Positions 11,222 through 45,590 of a DNA stretch of 45,854 nucleotides are shown piece after piece. Origin of the DNA: Candidatus Martarchaeota archaeon. GTDB lineage: Archaea; Micrarchaeota; Micrarchaeia; Micrarchaeales; Micrarchaeaceae. The notes beneath the pieces were generated by a model. The model was not told where the DNA came from, did not search any database, and was given only the letters and a program-made list of their open reading frames with translations. Location of the stretch: contig JAMCZI010000024.1 of NCBI GenBank assembly GCA_023485545.1, positions 1-45,854 of the forward strand. The letters are read 5' to 3'. How positions within the stretch are numbered: position 1 is the stretch's first letter; every line of letters begins with the position of its first letter. A program made the translations under genes and the position numbers.

Positions 11222-12196
11222 GTGCTGAAGCAGAAGATGGAGAAGCAGGGCTACCACTTTGTTGGAAAGCACTCAGCAGTGAAGATATGCGAATACACTG
11301 CAAACGGGCTCAGAGGAGGCACGCTATGCTACAAATACTCGTTTTACGGAATAAGGAGCTGGCAGTGCATACAGTCAACCCCAGCAATAGGCTGCGACAT
11401 AGGCTGCAAGTTCTGCTGGAGGCTCATACCGGAAGAGATAGGGATAAACTGGAATGAGCTCAACGCTGTTGGCGAATGGGACGACCCCGACGCTATAGTC
11501 GAAGGCATGATAAAGGAGCAGCGGCGCATAGTGAGCGGCTACAAGGCAGTGGCAGATACAGACCTGAAGATGAGAAGATGGGAGGAGGCAAATGCCCCCA
11601 GGCACGTCGCCATAAGCCTTACAGGAGAGCCCACATTCTACCCCAAGCTCAGCGCACTTATACGCAGCTTCCACAACAGGGGGATAAGCACATTTCTGGT
11701 CAGCAATGGCACTCTTCCAGAAGCAATAAGGAAGCTGGATCCGCTTCCAACCCAGCTTTACATATCGCTTCAGGCGCCAGATGAGGAATCTTATATCGAG
11801 GTTACGCGGCCCAAAATAAAGGGCACATGGGAAAGGTTCCTGGAATCGCTTTCTATGCTGAAAACGCTCAAAACAAGGACAGTGCTGCGCATGACTCTGA
11901 TAAAGGACCTGAACATGAAGAACCCTGATGGCTATGCGAAGCTTATAAAGCTGGCAGGAGCCAATTATGTCGAGGTAAAGGGCTTTTCATTCGTTGGCGG
12001 TGCAAGAGGCGACAGCCGTGGGCTCTCACTGCAGAGCATGCCGAACCACGCTGAGATAAAGGAATTCGCCGCTGAACTTGCCAAAAGAACGGGCTATATA
12101 GTTACTGCAGAGCACATGCCGAGCAGAATAGTGCTGCTTTCTCGCGATGAGGAATCAAAAAGGAACAGGATAATAGACTTCTCTAAGATCGCTTAG
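11222..12196 (+). CDS. taw1: tRNA 4-demethylwyosine synthase (TYW1/Taw1), radical SAM
   Basis: This 324-residue radical SAM enzyme condenses pyruvate-derived carbons with N1-methylguanosine-37 of tRNA-Phe to make the tricyclic wyosine core. The radical SAM cluster motif is CDIGCKFCW (Cys58, Cys62, Cys65). Three upstream cysteines, Cys23, Cys36 and Cys49, have the 13-residue spacing that ligates the second [4Fe-4S] cluster in characterised archaeal Taw1. SLTGEPTFYPKL is the conserved GE-type SAM-binding segment. The start is GTG with a strong Shine-Dalgarno TAGGAGGAG (about 11205-11213). The 9-mer GTACCGGCT sits directly before the start and recurs before the GINS gene. Its 3' end overlaps rnp4 by 14 bp, tail to tail. 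Confidence 0.95.
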   Translation: MLKQKMEKQGYHFVGKHSAVKICEYTANGLRGGTLCYKYSFYGIRSWQCIQSTPAIGCDIGCKFCWRLIPEEIGINWNELNAVGEWDDPDAIVEGMIKEQRRIVSGYKAVADTDLKMRRWEEANAPRHVAISLTGEPTFYPKLSALIRSFHNRGISTFLVSNGTLPEAIRKLDPLPTQLYISLQAPDEESYIEVTRPKIKGTWERFLESLSMLKTLKTRTVLRMTLIKDLNMKNPDGYAKLIKLAGANYVEVKGFSFVGGARGDSRGLSLQSMPNHAEIKEFAAELAKRTGYIVTAEHMPSRIVLLSRDEESKRNRIIDFSKIA

Positions 12197-13073: not shown

Positions 13074-13817
13074 TCAGTTCTCCATGTACGGAGCTAGGTA
13101 GTAAGATACTGTTGCGTCGCCTATGCTGTAGTCCACTTTGACCGGCTCCTCTGTCTTCATCGATATTGTTATCGCTGAATTGGACGGGCATGGTGCAACC
13201 ATCTTGCTAAGGTATTCTAGGTTAAATGTGGCAACTGCCCCTTTTGAGACCTCAAGCTTCTTTATGAACTCTGCCTTGTCAAGATGCTCCTCCTCAAGCT
13301 CGCCAAGCTCGCCCTTGGCTATTATCATGAATGTGCCCTTGTCAGCCTTCAAGCCTATATACGATGAAAGCAGTGTCGCGTCCTTGAGTATCTCCTTGAA
13401 CGAATCTCCCTGGACCTCCACGAACGAGTCGAACTCTATGTTTGGCTCCTTGTTTGAATCGTGCCTTACCTCTATCATGGGAAGCTTGTATTTCCTCTTG
13501 CTGTTCTCCCCGGCAAATTCGAGCATCACCTTGTTGTCGGCTTCCTTCATTGTAAGCCTCTCATTGGACCTAGAGCTGGCAAGTATCTTGCTCAGGTTGT
13601 CCAGGTTAAGGCCGACTGTGGCGCTCTTGTCCACATTGTACTTGGAAAATGCCTTGTTTGGTATGAAGAATGACACCATGCTTATGCCTGATGGATCCAT
13701 CGCCTTCAGGCTTATGCCCTCCTTGGTGATATTGAACGAACCCTCGTCTATGAGGCTGTTTATTGCATCAACGCAATTCCTCCAGTACTTGGCATCATCT
13801 ATTTTTATTTCAAACAT
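13074..13817 (-). CDS. pcn: DNA polymerase sliding clamp (PCNA)
   Basis: This is the ring-forming processivity factor for replicative DNA polymerases and other repair and replication enzymes. It has 247 residues, the usual clamp length. The N-terminal ISLKAMDPSGISMVSFFIPN (around 35-54) matches the conserved PCNA strand/loop, and the C-terminus ends YYLAPYMEN like other archaeal clamps. A single PCNA gene in the window is consistent with a homotrimer. It heads a probable minus-strand operon with the DJ-1-like gene and rnp4. A TATA-like AGTTAAATAGTA (13838-13850) lies about 25 bp upstream of the predicted transcript start near the ATG. Confidence 0.95.
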   Translation of the reverse strand: MFEIKIDDAKYWRNCVDAINSLIDEGSFNITKEGISLKAMDPSGISMVSFFIPNKAFSKYNVDKSATVGLNLDNLSKILASSRSNERLTMKEADNKVMLEFAGENSKRKYKLPMIEVRHDSNKEPNIEFDSFVEVQGDSFKEILKDATLLSSYIGLKADKGTFMIIAKGELGELEEEHLDKAEFIKKLEVSKGAVATFNLEYLSKMVAPCPSNSAITISMKTEEPVKVDYSIGDATVSYYLAPYMEN

Positions 13818-14204: not shown

Positions 14205-14213
14205 TTCTAATGA

Positions 14214-14288
14214 TGGGCCTGGAGAGATTTGAACTCTCGACCTACGGCTTATAAGACCGCCGCTCTGACCAGGCTGAGCTACAAGCCC
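14214..14288 (-). tRNA. tRNA-Ile (anticodon UAU)
   Basis: The minus strand folds into a complete 75-nt cloverleaf: acceptor GGGCTTG/CAGGCCC (with one G-U pair), D-arm GCTC/GAGC, anticodon stem GCGGT/GCCGT with loop CTTATAA, T-arm GAGAG/CTCTC with loop TTCAAAT, and discriminator A. The anticodon is UAU, reading AUA isoleucine directly. No intron is present and no 3' CCA is encoded. Most archaea instead read AUA with an agmatidine-modified CAU tRNA. It lies 45 bp beyond the 3' end of aglB on the same strand. Confidence 0.93.
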
Positions 14289-14333
14289 ACCCTTGCATAT
14301 TTCACTTCAAGCTATTTATTGGTTTTGTAGCGT

Positions 14334-24145: not shown

Positions 24146-24220
24146 AGCGAGGTAGGGTAGTCAGGAGTGCCCGCCGGGCTCATAACCCGGAGGTCGATGG
24201 TTCAAATCCATCCCTCGCTA
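24146..24220 (+). tRNA. Initiator tRNA-Met (anticodon CAU)
   Basis: A 75-nt cloverleaf: acceptor AGCGAGG/CCTCGCT, D-arm GGGT/GCCC, anticodon stem CCGGG/CCCGG with loop CTCATAA, T-arm GATGG/CCATC with loop TTCAAAT, and discriminator A. The A1-U72 pair and three consecutive G-C pairs at the loop end of the anticodon stem (GGG/CCC) mark it as the initiator rather than the elongator or Ile2 tRNA. No intron, no encoded CCA. A T-run (TTTTTT) follows directly and may end transcription. Confidence 0.93.
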
Positions 24221-26752: not shown

Positions 26753-26843
26753 GCGCTAGTAATCTAGCCTGGTAGGATATCGGCTTCCCATAAAAGCTTG
26801 GAAAAAGCCGAAGGCCCGGGTTCAAATCCCGGCTGGCGCACCA
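26753..26843 (+). tRNA. tRNA-Gly (anticodon CCC) with a 15-nt intron
   Basis: Mature tRNA: acceptor GCGCTAG/CTGGCGC, D-arm ATCT/GGAT, anticodon stem TCGGC/GCCGA, loop TTCCCAA after splicing, T-arm CCGGG/CCCGG, discriminator A, and an encoded CCA (26841-26843). The anticodon CCC reads GGG glycine. A 15-nt intron TAAAAGCTTGGAAAA (26791-26805) lies at the canonical 37/38 site. TTCC pairs with GGAA of the intron to give the 4-bp central helix, with 3-nt bulges CAT and AAA at the two splice sites, a bulge-helix-bulge substrate. The gene fits between PAC2 (1 bp) and the DUF92 stop (1 bp). Confidence 0.9.
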
Positions 26844-32405: not shown

Positions 32406-34328
32406 ATGGACTCAAACGATTCTAATGGGTATACTGCAAAAGACATAACCGTTCTTTCGGGGCCACAGGGAATCCGGAAGCGCCCCGCGATGTACATCGG
32501 CTCAACCGGACCCCAGGGGTTTACCCATCTTCTGTACGAGGTTCTCGACAACTCTATAGACGAGGCCATGGCGGGATACTGCCACAACATCTCCATAATC
32601 CTTGGGCGAGAAGATGAAGTCGACACTGCCGAAATATCCGATGATGGCAGGGGCATACCCGTCGACATGATGCCTAAAATCAACAAGCCGGCGCTTGAAG
32701 TAATAATGACCTCAATCCACGCCGGTGGCAAATTTGAAAACAAGGCGTACAAAGTATCCGGCGGTCTTCATGGCGTCGGTCTTACAGTGGTAAATTCGCT
32801 TTCGGAATATACGACGGTTACCGTTAGGCGCGAAGGAAAGATATACCGTCAGGAGTTCAGCCGCGGCGCCCCTGTTTCAAAGCTTGAGCAGATAGGTGAA
32901 TACAGCGATGGCACCTCTGGCACCACGATAAAATTCAAACCAGACCGCGAGATATTCAGCGCGCTTAACTTCGATACGATAGAGATTGAGGAGCGGGTCA
33001 GAGATTTGTCATACTTAAACAAGGGTGTGACGATTACTCTTGTAGATAGGCGCGGCGAGCAACCCAAGGAAAAGAAATACTCGTCGCAGAATGGCATAAT
33101 GGATTTTCTGGAATACATAACTGAGCACAAGGAGAGCGTATCAAATCCAGTATCAATATCTAAGTCCGAAGGAAGCACAGAGGTCAATGCAATTTTTCAG
33201 TATGTCAATGCATACAATGAGAATCTCGTTTCGTTCGTAAACAAGATAAAGACTCCTGAGGGCGGGACACACCTGACAGGCTTCAGGACCGCGATAACAA
33301 GAGCGATAACTAACTATATACAGAGGAACCCAAAGAAACAGAAGGAAAACATACCGCTTGAAGGCGAGGACACTAGGGAGGGCCTCTATGGTGTAATATC
33401 CATAATGCTCCAGAATCCTGAATTCGAGGGCCAGACCAAGGAGAAGCTCGGCAATTCAGCCGTCAAGAGCATCGTCGACAGCATCGTATACTCGGAGTTC
33501 ACCAGGTTTCTCGAGGAGAATCCACAGGAAGCCGGCAGGATACTGGAAAAAGTTTACGGAGCAGCAAGAGCGCGCGAATCCGCGAAACGTGCAAGAGAGC
33601 TGTCAAGGAAGAAGGGCATATTCGACGGGCCGCTGCTTTCGGGCAAGCTCGCAGACTGCACAGAAAGCGACCCTGAAAAGACTGAGATATTCATAGTCGA
33701 GGGGGACAGCGCCGCAGGCTCAAGCAAGCAGGGAAGGGACAGGTTTTATCAGGCGATACTGCCTCTCAGGGGAAAGGTGCTCAACGTCGAAAAAGCTACC
33801 GACGAAAAGATATTCTCGAACAAGGAACTCCATATGATGGTTGCCGCGTTCGGCACCGGCATAAGGGAGACATTCGATCCAAACAAGCTAAGGTACAACA
33901 AGATAATACTGCTCACCGATGCAGATGTCGACGGCAGCCACATAAGGACGCTGCTGATGACATTCCTTTACAGGTACATGCGCCCTCTCATAGAACGCGG
34001 CAATCTTTACATAGCCCAGCCGCCGCTTTACAAGATCTCTAAGGGCAAGCACGTAAAGTACGCATACTCAGACACGGAGCTTGAGGGTGCGTTGAAGGAG
34101 TTCGGCGAAGCCGCAGCTGTGCAGAGGTACAAAGGTCTTGGAGAGATGAATCCAGAGCAATTATGGGAAACTACTATGGATCCGAAATCAAGGGTCCTGA
34201 AAAAGGTCTCTATAAGAGACGCAGAAAAGGCCGATGCGATATTTGCAACGCTAATGGGCGCAGATGTCTCAGAGAGGAGGAAGTTCCTAGAAGAGCATTC
34301 TACGGAAGTTTCCTTCCTTGACGTATAG
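32406..34328 (+). CDS. gyrB: DNA gyrase subunit B
   Basis: GyrB supplies the ATPase and TOPRIM parts of gyrase, which introduces negative supercoils. The 640-residue protein has the GHKL ATPase domain ([57 protein letters not shown]), the transducer, the TOPRIM motifs [15 protein letters not shown] (Glu432) and [13 protein letters not shown] (Asp505, Asp507), and the C-terminal [18 protein letters not shown]. Length matches bacterial GyrB without the proteobacterial insert. Archaeal gyrases derive from bacteria by transfer. gyrA follows after 8 bp. Confidence 0.97.
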
Positions 34329-34336
34329 GTGCTTCT

Positions 34337-36790
34337 ATGGGCGAAACGATAGATACGAGCATAGAGAAGGAGATGCAGACCAGCTACATAGACTACGCTA
34401 TGAGCGTAATAGTAGGCAGGGCGCTCCCAGATGCAAGGGACGGCCTTAAGCCTGCGCAAAGGCGCATACTGTACGCCATGTACCGGCTAGGCAACCTTCA
34501 TAGCAGCGCCACGAAGAAGAGCGCAAGGATAGTCGGTGAAGTAATAGGAAAATACCACCCCCACGGCGACGTGGCAGTATACGAAACCATGGTCAGGATG
34601 GCCCAAGACTTCACGCTTAACCATACATTGGTCGAAGGCCAGGGCAATATGGGTTCTATAGACGGAGATCCACCAGCTGCTCAGAGGTACACAGAGGTAA
34701 GGCTTGCCAAGCTTGCAGAGGAGATGCTGCAGGACCTAGACAAGGAATCGGTGCATTTCATACCAAATTTCGACAATACGGAAGAGGAGCCAGTCGTGCT
34801 TCCCAGCAAGTTTCCCAACGCTCTCGTGAATGGTTCCTCGGGCATAGCGGTCGGTGTCGCCACAAACATACTGCCACACAATCTTGCTGAGATATGCGAT
34901 GCGGTTTCTGCATACGTTGACAAGCCGGAGATAAAGATAGAAGAACTCCTCAGGATAATAAAGGGGCCTGATTTTCCAACTGGCGGGAAGGCTTTCTACA
35001 GCAAATCGCTTTACGATTCATACATATCTGGCAGGGGGTCTGTAATACTCAGGGGCAAAATCGACTTCGAACCAGGCAAAAGCAGGGATAGCCTGATAAT
35101 AACCGAGATACCATACACTGTAAACAAGGCTTCGCTCACCGAATCCATAGCGATGCTGGCAAGGGACAAGAAGATCAACGGAATAATGGACATACGCGAC
35201 GAAAGTGGTAGGGAAGGAATGCGTGTCGTAATAGAGATAAAGAAGGACGTCAATTCAGAGTATGTTATAAACTCGCTGTACAAGCACACACAGATGCAGG
35301 TCACTCTTCCAGCGATAAACATAGCAGTGATAGGAAACAGGCTTCTTACTCTGAATATAAGGAATTTCATAAAGATATTTGTTGAGCACAGGTTTGAAGT
35401 AATAACCAACAGGACAAAGTACGATCTCAAAGTCGCAGAGGACAGGAAGCATATTGTCGAGGGCTTGATAATAGCCCTGGAAAACATAGAGGAAGTCATA
35501 GAACTCATAAAGAAAAGTCGTGATTCAAGGGAGGCAAAGGACGGCCTAACCTCAAAATACGGCCTGAGCGAAAAGCAGACGGCTGCGATACTCGACATGA
35601 AGCTTTCCAAGCTTACCAATCTTGAGATAAATTCGATAAGGACAGAGTTTGAGGACCTGAAGTCAAAAATCTCCGGATACGAAGAACTTCTCGGCAGCCC
35701 CGCAAAAATCTACCAGGTAATCAAGGAAGAATCTGCTTACATAAAGGAAAAGTATGGTCGCCCGCGCAGGACCGAAATGCTGCAGGAGACCGAATCCGAT
35801 GGCATAGGGATGGAGGACCTGATAAACGACGAAGACACCATGATAATACTGACAAATAGTAACTATGCAAAGCGCACGGATCCAAAGCTGTACCACCAGC
35901 AGGAACGCGGAGGCAAGGGTGTGATAGCAATAAATCTCAAGGAAAGCGACATGGTCAAGCAGATGCTGCAGTGCAGGACAAAGGACCTCCTTATACTGTT
36001 CACAGACAGGGGCAGGGCGTATTGGTGCAAGGCATACAGCTTGCCTGAGGGCGATAGATACTCTCCCGGCAAACCCTTGGTCAATGTGCTTGAAGGGCTC
36101 GGCCAGGAAAAAGTTGAAAAGATACTCAAGGCCAGCGACATAGAAAGCAGGTTCATCGTTTTCCTCACAAAGAATGGCCTAATCAAGCGCGTCCGCGGTG
36201 CAAAATTCATGAATCAAAGATCTACCGGGGTCAAAGCCATTCCGCTCAATGAATCCGATTCCATATCTGACATATGCGTTTCGGATGGGAAATCAGAAAT
36301 ATTCATATCAACTAAAAAGGGCAAGTCAATAAGATTCATCGAAACAGACGTAAGGCCAATGTCAAGAGCAGCACACGGAGTAAGGGGAATCCGCCTCAAG
36401 AAGGGCGACTCCGCTGTGAGCATCGTAGCAGCAGCTTCTACCCACGACGATATGATACTATCAGTGAGCAGCGATGGATATGGCAAGGTAACAGAATTAG
36501 AACGTTATAGGCTTCAGAGGCGCGGCGGCTCTGGCGTGCTAAACATGAAGCTAAAGAGCGCAAACAGCCAAGTCGTAAAATCGGTCAAGGCTGGTCCAGA
36601 ATCTGTTGCAACGCTTCTGAGCTCTGATGGGATATCCATACAGTTCAGCATAAAGTCCGTAAGGGTTACTGGAAGGGCAGCCTCCGGCGTAAGGCTTATG
36701 AGGCTCACAAGCCCTGCTACTGTCGTTGACGTTCAGTGTTCTGATATGCCCATTTCCAATGAAGTACCACAGAACCAAGAACCTATATAG
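34337..36790 (+). CDS. gyrA: DNA gyrase subunit A
   Basis: GyrA cuts and rejoins DNA and wraps it through its C-terminal beta-pinwheel. The 817-residue protein has [20 protein letters not shown] (about 20-39), the catalytic Tyr118 in [14 protein letters not shown] and the GyrA box QRRGGSGV at 727-734, which identifies gyrase rather than topoisomerase IV. At the positions equivalent to E. coli Ser83 and Asp87 it has Val79 and Glu83 ([11 protein letters not shown]). A trm56-like gene follows after 28 bp on the same strand. Confidence 0.97.
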
Positions 36791-43205: not shown

Positions 43206-43562
43206 ATGCTCTATGATTATATCGCAGCAGTGCTGTTCATACTATTCGGCCTACTTGTGCCTTTCTCATTTCTTCTTACTTCAAAGCTCTTGCGCGTAAA
43301 GACCTCCGGCAATCCTGTAAAGAATTCACCGTATGAAAGCGGAGAGAAGAGCATAGGGAGCAGCAGGGACCTCGACAACGAATACCTCCCTTATTTCGCG
43401 CTTTTCCTCCCTTTTGAAATAATCGCAGTATACATGATTTTCTGGGCCCCGACGGCAAGAATAGGTTCTCAGAGCGCAGCCATCGGATCCATGGGAATTC
43501 TTGCACTGAGTGCTGTCCTAGCTCTTATAGGATATAAGATGATAAGTGGTAAAAATGTCTGA
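43206..43562 (+). CDS. nuoA: NADH:quinone oxidoreductase-type complex I subunit A
   Basis: NuoA is a small membrane subunit near the quinone site of complex I. The 118-residue protein has three membrane helices. The loop between helices one and two contains the conserved SPYESGEKSIGSSR (YECG-like, with Ser in place of Cys), and DNEYLPYFALFLPFEIIAVY follows, with the conserved acidic residue. It overlaps nuoB by 8 bp and begins the nuoABCD run in bacterial order. Confidence 0.9.
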   Translation: MLYDYIAAVLFILFGLLVPFSFLLTSKLLRVKTSGNPVKNSPYESGEKSIGSSRDLDNEYLPYFALFLPFEIIAVYMIFWAPTARIGSQSAAIGSMGILALSAVLALIGYKMISGKNV

Positions 43563-44169
43563 ACGCCCATACACGGATGAGGAGCTATTTAATGCGGAGA
43601 AGGAAATGACTGAGCTTACGCAAAATTCCCTCAAGAAATACAAGCAGACCCCTAGCGTCATGTTCACAAAGCTTGAAGAGGCTATAAAGGCGTTCTCGAA
43701 GGATCTGGTACGCTGGAGCAGGGCAAATTCCATGTGGCCGCTGCAATTCGGGCTTGCATGCTGTGCTATGGAGCTAATGGATTTCGGATCATCAAGGATA
43801 GACGCGGAGAGAAAAGGCTACCTACTCTTCCGCGGAACTCCACGCCAATGCGATGTAATGATAGTCGCCGGGTGGGTAACAAAGTCTATGGTTCCGCGCG
43901 TAAAAAGGCTCTATGAGCAGATGGCCAGCCCCAAATACGTGGTTGCATTCGGCGAATGCGCCACTTCTGGGGGTCCATGGTATGAAAGCTACAATATAAT
44001 GAAAGGGATAGACCAGGTGCTCCCTGTTGACGTCTACGCTATAGGTTGCCCCCCGAAGCCCGAAAACCTTTTCGGGGCCCTTATGAAGCTACAGGATAAA
44101 GTAGGTGGTAAAGTTGCAGGAGATACAGAAAGAAGCCTTACTGAAAACATTAGAAGAGCTGAAATCTAA
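43555..44169 (+). CDS. nuoB: Complex I subunit B (N2 iron-sulfur cluster)
   Basis: NuoB holds cluster N2, the last [4Fe-4S] centre before quinone. The ligands are visible as LACCAMELMDFG, FGECATSGGPWYES and IGCPPKPENLFGAL. With the start at 43555 (MSERPYTDEELF) it has 204 residues, including an N-terminal extension of about 50 charged residues before the core. The track start at 43546 adds three. The last part overlaps nuoC by about 56-65 bp in another frame. Confidence 0.94.
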   Translation: MSERPYTDEELFNAEKEMTELTQNSLKKYKQTPSVMFTKLEEAIKAFSKDLVRWSRANSMWPLQFGLACCAMELMDFGSSRIDAERKGYLLFRGTPRQCDVMIVAGWVTKSMVPRVKRLYEQMASPKYVVAFGECATSGGPWYESYNIMKGIDQVLPVDVYAIGCPPKPENLFGALMKLQDKVGGKVAGDTERSLTENIRRAEI

Positions 44170-44491
44170 AGGTTATCGCTATCTGAAGTACATAACCGCA
44201 GTGGACGCTCCTGACCACATGGAAGTAGTGTACCTGCTTGCCAACATTGAATCGAATGTAGATGAGGTTGTTAAGGTATCCATTAAAAAATCTGAAAGCG
44301 AAAGGCCATCAGTTGAATCGGTGATGAATCTTTTTCCCGCTGCTGATTGGTACGAGCGCGAAATATCCGAAATGTTCGGCATAAAGATAGAGGGCAGAAA
44401 AACGCGCCGTCTTCTTCTAGAGGAATGGAACGGCGACGGGTTCCCGCTTTTGAAAAGCTTTGAATGGGGCAAAGAGTACCACAAACGGTGA
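44105..44491 (+). CDS. nuoC: Complex I subunit C (30-kDa type)
   Basis: NuoC is a peripheral arm subunit that packs on NuoD. The 128-residue protein has the core YLKYITAVDAPDHMEVVYLL and the signature ADWYEREISEMFGIKIEG with LLLEEWNGDGFPLLKSF. It is shorter than most NuoC (about 150-200). The GTG at 44105 lies inside nuoB. A TTG at 44114 with AGGTGG five bases upstream is an attractive alternative start. Either way, the gene overlaps nuoB by more than 50 bp. Confidence 0.9.
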   Translation: MVKLQEIQKEALLKTLEELKSKGYRYLKYITAVDAPDHMEVVYLLANIESNVDEVVKVSIKKSESERPSVESVMNLFPAADWYEREISEMFGIKIEGRKTRRLLLEEWNGDGFPLLKSFEWGKEYHKR

Positions 44492-44495
44492 AATC

Positions 44496-45590
44496 ATGCC
44501 AAACATGCGCATAAACATAGGGCCTATACACCCAAGCACGCATGGGGTCCTGCGTGTAGTGGCATATGTTAATGGCGACACGATCGATAGCGTTGAACCA
44601 CACATAGGATTCCTTCACCGCGGCGTAGAGAAGCTTATGGAGACAAGGATGTACATGCAAAATCCTTCATACACTGAGAAACTTGATTACGTCGCTCCAA
44701 TGGGCTGGGACGAATTGTATGTAAGCTCGGTAGAGAAAGCCACCGGTGCCACTGTACTGGAAAATGCACAGTACGCAAGAGTTATACTTTTGGAATTTCA
44801 GCGGATAGCAAGCCACCTTCTGTGGCTAGGAACTTTTGCGAACGACCTTGGGCAAATGTTCACTATTTTTATGTGGGCGTTCAGGGAGAGGGCAAAAGTG
44901 ATAAAGTTTCTTGAGGATGTATCAGGAAGCAGGATGTTCTATGTGAACATGCGCATAGGCGGCCTAAACGGGGAATTGCCGGAAGACTTCAAGGAGCGTG
45001 CGTATTCACTGCTCGACTATCTCAGCGAGAGGATACCAAAATACAGGAGCCTGCTTGACAACAACAACTTCTTTGTTTCAAGAACCAAGGGTGTCGGGGT
45101 GCTGTCAAAAGAAGATGCGATAGCATACGGCGCGTCAGGTCCGGTCCTGCGAGCTTCGGGCGTGGAATACGATGTCAGGAAGTCCTCTCCATACTACATA
45201 TACGATAAGTTGAAGTTCAATGTGCCTCGCGGTACACATGGGGACGCTTTCGACCGCTACAGGGTAAGATACGACGAGATGCTAGAAAGTATAAAGATAA
45301 TAAAGCAAACACTAGATTTAATGCCCGGGGGAAGTGTTGCAGGAGCAAAGGTAAAACTTATAGGTCAGCCCGCAAAGCCAGATCCTGTAATAATCTCGCG
45401 CGAGCTTCCAAGGGGGGAAGGTATCATATATCTGGTGCCAGACAAGCAGAAGCCGTACAGGATAGGGATGCGCAGTCCGGCATACATAAACCTGTCTCTG
45501 CTGCCCAAGCTTGCAAAAGGTGCTAAGTTTGCTGACCTGTTCTCTATAATAGGCAGCCTTGACGTCGTTTTCGCAGAAATAGATAGATAA
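44496..45590 (+). CDS. nuoD: Complex I subunit D (49-kDa type, quinone site)
   Basis: NuoD forms the quinone-binding pocket with NuoB and is related to [NiFe] hydrogenase large subunits. From the ATG at 44496 it has 364 residues. It starts MPNMRINIGPIHPSTHGVLR with the quinone-site His, continues with EPHIGFLHRGVEKLME and GLNGELPEDF, and ends IIGSLDVVFAEIDR. The hydrogenase Ni-binding cysteines are absent, as expected for complex I. The track start at 44460 lies inside nuoC; the ATG at 44496 follows the nuoC stop by 4 bp and has a GGTGA-type site upstream. Confidence 0.95.
   Translation: MPNMRINIGPIHPSTHGVLRVVAYVNGDTIDSVEPHIGFLHRGVEKLMETRMYMQNPSYTEKLDYVAPMGWDELYVSSVEKATGATVLENAQYARVILLEFQRIASHLLWLGTFANDLGQMFTIFMWAFRERAKVIKFLEDVSGSRMFYVNMRIGGLNGELPEDFKERAYSLLDYLSERIPKYRSLLDNNNFFVSRTKGVGVLSKEDAIAYGASGPVLRASGVEYDVRKSSPYYIYDKLKFNVPRGTHGDAFDRYRVRYDEMLESIKIIKQTLDLMPGGSVAGAKVKLIGQPAKPDPVIISRELPRGEGIIYLVPDKQKPYRIGMRSPAYINLSLLPKLAKGAKFADLFSIIGSLDVVFAEIDR

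Follow-up and report, generated by a model that had tools for sequence, protein, structure and literature searches.

How can an archaeon read AUA as isoleucine without also reading AUG? This question is raised by a tRNA gene in the stretch of DNA analysed here (45,854 nt, hereafter the window). In the agmatidine system, reportedly described in 2010 by Ikeuchi and by Mandal, TiaS and tRNA-Ile2(CAU) provide the answer. In the window, by contrast, the gene specifies a tRNA-Ile whose anticodon is UAU.

The tRNA-Ile(UAU) gene and its codon

ARAGORN calls a tRNA-Ile(tat) on the minus strand at 14212-14289, Rfam family RF00005 matches 14214-14288 of the same strand (71 bits, E = 1.2e-13), and the mature sequence, GGGCTTGTAGCTCAGCCTGGTCAGAGCGGCGGTCTTATAAGCCGTAGGTCGAGAGTTCAAATCTCTCCAGGCCCA, folds into a cloverleaf with a minimum free energy of -27.3 kcal/mol. 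An earlier sequence-only reading had described an unambiguous cloverleaf tRNA-Ile with anticodon UAU, and all three analyses confirm it, with the gene on the minus strand (Table 1). Chance can be ruled out because most genomes of the phylum, Micrarchaeota, have conserved this tRNA. The tRNA shares 63 of 75 positions with the tRNA-Ile(GAU) of a relative (G125), versus at most 57 of 75 with any Lys, Arg or Met tRNA in the comparison; by sequence it is closest to tRNA-Ile(GAU) and has the features of a tRNA-Ile. The U31-G39 pair closes the anticodon loop in all 24 intronless copies of tRNA-Ile(UAU) and, after splicing, in 82 of the 91 intron-bearing copies scored, unlike the A31-U39 pair in the tRNA-Ile(GAU) of G125. 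This pair may tune decoding.

Table 1. Features of the window, with coordinates counted from its first nucleotide.
Feature	Position	Strand	Remarks
Cytochrome bd oxidase subunits I and II; NADH-dehydrogenase-type subunits (PF01058, PF00346)	634-2939; 43546-45590	plus	
TYW1-type enzyme	11222-12196	plus	radical SAM and wyosine-formation domains; acts on G37 of tRNA-Phe
PCNA-like gene, putative	13074-13817		assigned by eye; neighbour of tRNA-Ile(UAU)
tRNA-Ile(UAU)	14214-14288	minus	intronless, A73, no encoded CCA; ARAGORN, Rfam and fold; conserved in the phylum
Anticodon UAU (positions 34-36)	14251-14253	minus	5' U31 C32 U33; 3' A37 A38 G39; loop closed by U31-G39 wobble
Large membrane protein, 1118 aa	14334-17690	minus	putatively STT3/AglB-like by eye, no Pfam match; adjoins tRNA-Ile(UAU)
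Initiator tRNA-Met(CAU)	24146-24220	plus	A1-U72 pair, three G-C pairs in the anticodon stem; reads AUG at starts; same type in G125
tRNA-Gly(CCC)	about 26753-26843	plus	15-nt BHB intron at 26791-26805; ARAGORN label tRNA-Met(cat) wrong
DNA gyrase, bacterial type	32406-36790	plus	GyrB, then GyrA
Surface-type protein, 664 aa	40072-42066	minus	no Pfam match; internal repeat

The codon that this tRNA would read is abundant. Isoleucine is encoded in the window by 789 ATA, 116 ATC and 146 ATT codons, and the very frequent use of ATA remarked on earlier holds on tabulation, at 75% of Ile codons versus the 33% expected for the genome from A-ending codons of fourfold boxes. The ATA share is likewise 75% in the whole genome, 72% in genome G203 and 59-65% in the sister family, so that ATA is the major Ile codon in those genomes of the window's order that were sampled (59-75%, versus 27-42% expected from fourfold A). 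At 96 ATA codons of GyrA, RadA and uL2, the homologues in the PDB carry isoleucine 36 times, valine 26, leucine 13 and methionine once (I, V or L at 75 of 96). Judged by these alignments, AUA means isoleucine in this genome.

Several other genes of the window deserve mention in their own right. The gyrase is of bacterial type, and its GyrA matches bacterial GyrA over nearly the full length. The cytochrome bd and NADH-dehydrogenase-type genes suggest that the organism, despite its small genome, respires oxygen. In the surface-type protein, the internal repeat comprises two copies containing GWSGKGNGSYTGNATSFN.

TiaS, the CAU tRNAs and the spread of tRNA-Ile(UAU)

The sequence-only reading had further supposed that the agmatidine route may have been dropped, and had named tiaS and an Ile2-type CAU tRNA as the genes to look for. 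The assembly to which the window belongs (762 kb, 32 contigs) is 78% complete. Its CAU tRNAs number two: the initiator at 24146 and, on contig C19, an elongator with an intron. Neither a third, Ile2-type CAU tRNA nor a tRNA-Ile(GAU) was found in this assembly. An additional tRNA-Met(cat), called by ARAGORN at 26753 (as Phe in intron mode), was rejected. The gene has a canonical bulge-helix-bulge intron, with a central helix TTCC/GGAA and bulges CAT and AAA, and its spliced form, with the loop UUCCCAA, matches the intronless tRNA-Gly(CCC) of G125. It is therefore not a CAU tRNA, and automatic annotation would miscount here. In G125 itself, which is 97% complete in three contigs, we found tRNA-Ile(GAU), tRNA-Ile(UAU), initiator tRNA-Met and elongator tRNA-Met; the last two are its only CAU tRNAs, with no tRNA-Ile2(CAU).

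TiaS was sought through its FLD domain, PF08489, only. The profile found all four archaeal control genomes positive, and it gave no match in the window's own genome, in any of the 301 Micrarchaeota genomes or in the 96 of them that are of high quality (at least 90% complete). The supposition of a dropped agmatidine route is thus supported, with no tiaS match in the own genome or the phylum and no CAU tRNA beyond the two Met types in the own genome or in G125. It might be argued that the UAU tRNA was added to the older route, and that tiaS and tRNA-Ile2(CAU) belong to the fifth of the genome not covered by the assembly; in work cited in PMC9976931, Lactobacillus plantarum is reported to have both CAU and UAU tRNA-Ile. 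The incompleteness of this one assembly leaves room for such a reading, but the question is settled by the phylum-wide count and by the near-complete G125, and we regard an addition as very improbable indeed. Four things are observed directly: a conserved tRNA, genomes that lack TiaS, a near-complete relative that has no third CAU tRNA, and ATA as a codon for Ile and its major one in the order. It is highly probable that tRNA-Ile(UAU) here replaces the agmatidine system of TiaS and tRNA-Ile2(CAU).

What caused the switch is a separate matter. TiaS needs agmatine, and loss of agmatine synthesis could have forced the change from agmatidine, since the search for arginine decarboxylase (PF01862) gave no match for the own genome and for 221 of the 301 genomes. 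As a general cause, this is weakened by the 80 genomes that have the decarboxylase and still lack TiaS, and we consider it improbable.

The replacement is not confined to one genome. With a pattern that describes the D arm and runs on to A37, tRNA-Ile(UAU) was detected in 238 of the 301 Micrarchaeota genomes and 82 of the 96 high-quality ones, while the same pattern run backward as a control matched six. By hand count, matches occurred in 76 of 85 genomes of the own family, 68 of 79 of the sister family and 94 of 137 of the others. A few matches are spurious (that in G062, for example, is due to chance and that in G104 is a tRNA-Lys), and some misses are genuine genes with extra introns. One such case is G080, an A+T-rich genome, where the tRNA-Ile(UAU) on the minus strand (L141) seemingly has an intron in each of the D and T loops and another after A37, three in all; several further tRNAs of G080 look similarly interrupted. 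A pattern that required A38 had given only 103 of 301 genomes and left most other families without the tRNA. It was rejected because an intron directly after A37 alters the next base, as the 5' halves show, and looser patterns that still required A38 or a purine there failed for the same cause. We also rejected the idea that families without a pattern match leave AUA unassigned or give it another meaning, as G015, G043, G080 and G118 carry the UAU tRNA.

Outside the phylum, the matches listed for a stricter pattern among GTDB genomes include Diapherotrites, Woesearchaeota, Pacearchaeota, other Nanoarchaeota and Aenigmatarchaeota, as well as one Nanohaloarchaeon, one Altiarchaeon and some bacteria. 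In ten loci from Patescibacteria and other bacteria, the tRNA-Ile(UAU) has no intron of archaeal type. PF08489 was again without a match in 35 genomes from other DPANN groups, which were picked for their UAU tRNA and many of which are small, incomplete assemblies. The UAU replacement thus spans the phylum Micrarchaeota and extends into further DPANN phyla; it is a change in decoding shared by a lineage, rather than a peculiarity of one genome. UAU-using lineages do exist, as the sequence-only reading had stated, but its "a few lineages" understated their extent.

Elp3, the intron after A37 and the avoidance of AUG

If tRNA-Ile(UAU) is the cell's AUA reader, as we propose, it would be charged with Ile and its U34 would pair with A in ordinary Watson-Crick fashion, and the problem becomes how the same U34 is kept off AUG. 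Elp3 is the known archaeal U34-modifying enzyme (cm5U/cnm5U type), and its route is, to our knowledge, the one characterised archaeal pathway acting on carbon 5 of U34. Scored by TIGR01211 over the cut-off, Elp3 is found in none of the 164 genomes of the window's order, versus 125 of the 137 Micrarchaeota genomes outside it (Fisher's exact test, 2e-71, ignoring shared ancestry). In haloarchaeal work on U34-mutant tRNA-Ile, cnm5U34 reportedly reads AUG as well as AUA; the loss of Elp3 would therefore remove a hazard for tRNA-Ile(UAU). Further work on haloarchaeal U34 mutants is found in PMC8879553. Some anticodon-loop modification was evidently kept despite the loss of Elp3, as indicated by the TYW1-type gene of the window. 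In the sampled Elp3-bearing families, ATA accounts for 33-56% of Ile codons, and Elp3 loss alone does not explain the preference for AUA because the share is fairly high (54%) in some of these families.

Our explanation for AUG avoidance is that, with Elp3 lost in the order, U34 may not be turned into a G-reading (c)nm5U; the conserved, distinctive anticodon arm (C32, U31-G39) would help, as would elongator tRNA-Met(CAU) by competing for AUG. Where a family has kept Elp3, protection of U34 may instead come from the intron after A37. This U34 part, taken alone, is tentative, and we would put it somewhat short of even. An alternative is that no modification is needed: plain U34 would read AUA, and AUG would be excluded by the ribosome or by the body of the tRNA, as is said to be the case in Mycoplasma mobile (work by Taniguchi in 2013). 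The absence of Elp3 in the order, the lack of an intron in the window gene and the strong conservation of the anticodon arm, with U31-G39 in place of the A31-U39 of tRNA-Ile(GAU), all fit this alternative. Against it, U34-mutant haloarchaeal tRNA-Ile reportedly binds AUG on the ribosome (Mandal in 2014), although U34 there carried cnm5U. Plain U34 thus remains a serious contender, to which we give a little less than even weight.

The intron deserves closer attention. Its state was read in 75 Micrarchaeota copies, with corrections by eye for L033 and L053, where it is present, and for L141, which the automatic call had missed. It lies after A37 in all 24 UAU copies from the Elp3-bearing families and in 27 of the 51 from the Elp3-less order, the window copy having none; this association between intron and Elp3 status (Fisher's exact test, 1e-5, 75 copies) is drawn from relatives that share ancestry and are not independent. 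Most copies from the order came from the A38-requiring pattern, so that intronless genes are over-sampled, and from the broader pattern we estimate the intronless share of the order at about 40%. Among the copies from other DPANN, 34 of 35 have the intron (L214 scored by eye). Before splicing, the intron is able to pair with C32-A35 (UAAG with CUUA, e.g., in L165). An intron after A37 that can pair with the anticodon occurs in most DPANN relatives and not in the window gene.

In yeast, Pus1 forms psi34 and psi36 in tRNA-Ile(UAU) only if the intron is present, and with the intron removed Elongator is able to make ncm5U34 (PMC11408192). By analogy, the BHB intron of DPANN might pair with U34 and enable psi34 formation by a pseudouridine synthase, or otherwise block Elp3; once Elp3 was lost in the order, the intron would have become dispensable and been lost repeatedly. 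The contrast between Elp3-bearing families and the Elp3-less order, the near-constant intron in other DPANN and the yeast precedent speak for such a guard, while the shared ancestry of the copies compared weakens the test, and tRNA introns seem commoner overall in the Elp3-bearing G015 (the sole such genome inspected) than in G125. We consider both the guard and the subsequent loss unlikely, if worth entertaining, and the parallel with the yeast intron and psi34 is suggestive only. A broader scenario is more speculative still: DPANN as a group would have dropped agmatidine for tRNA-Ile(UAU), an intron competing with Elp3 would keep U34 off AUG in an archaeal arrangement that matches the intron, Pus1 and Elongator of yeast, whether by ancestry or by convergence, and Elp3 loss in the window's order would have freed the intron and let AUA dominate among Ile codons. 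We think this rather doubtful as a whole.

Comparison with known systems

Reviews and surveys treat agmatidine as the archaeal solution, and a whole phylum, together with other DPANN members, without TiaS alters this picture of AUA decoding. Ile UAU anticodons have been described as near-absent in archaea (2 of 167 genomes; PMC6000648), and the UAU anticodon for Ile has been called "lost" in prokaryotes (PMC8007984). In the literature searched, which covers few subscription papers and leaves earlier reports possible, an archaeal UAU tRNA is reported for Nanoarchaeum and Korarchaeum only, and no paper joining agmatidine with DPANN was found. As far as this search shows, the tRNA itself is of a known kind, tRNA-Ile3(UAU), and what is new is the phylum-wide loss of TiaS and the pattern of Elp3 and intron. 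Genomes with and without Elp3, and with and without the intron, provide a natural comparison for how a U34 tRNA-Ile avoids AUG, and the same pattern bears on possible archaeal roots of the eukaryotic psi-A-psi solution.

The agmatidine system solves the same problem, AUA as Ile and not AUG, and the window's lineage differs from it in lacking TiaS and the third CAU tRNA. The closest precedents are Nanoarchaeum equitans and Korarchaeum cryptofilum, for which tRNA-Ile3(UAU) is known (PMC6000648, PMC8450103); like the window, they have an archaeal tRNA-Ile(UAU) instead of tRNA-Ile2(CAU), and the window's lineage shows the features of this type, with a complete UAU tRNA bearing Ile features, no TiaS or Ile2(CAU), and AUA as Ile. 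Unlike these two-species reports, the present case is phylum-wide in Micrarchaeota and extends to other DPANN, has AUA as the major Ile codon of an order, and is linked to the loss of Elp3 and of the intron. In bacteria, tRNA-Ile(UAU) is known from Mycoplasma, Bifidobacterium and Neorickettsia (PMC8450103), where it likewise displaces a modified CAU tRNA, although in another domain and with lysidine (TilS) as the replaced modification. Yeast tRNA-Ile(UAU) (PMC11408192) has the same anticodon and shares with most DPANN copies the intron site one base after the anticodon; it has the intron together with psi34 and psi36, whereas the window gene is intronless.
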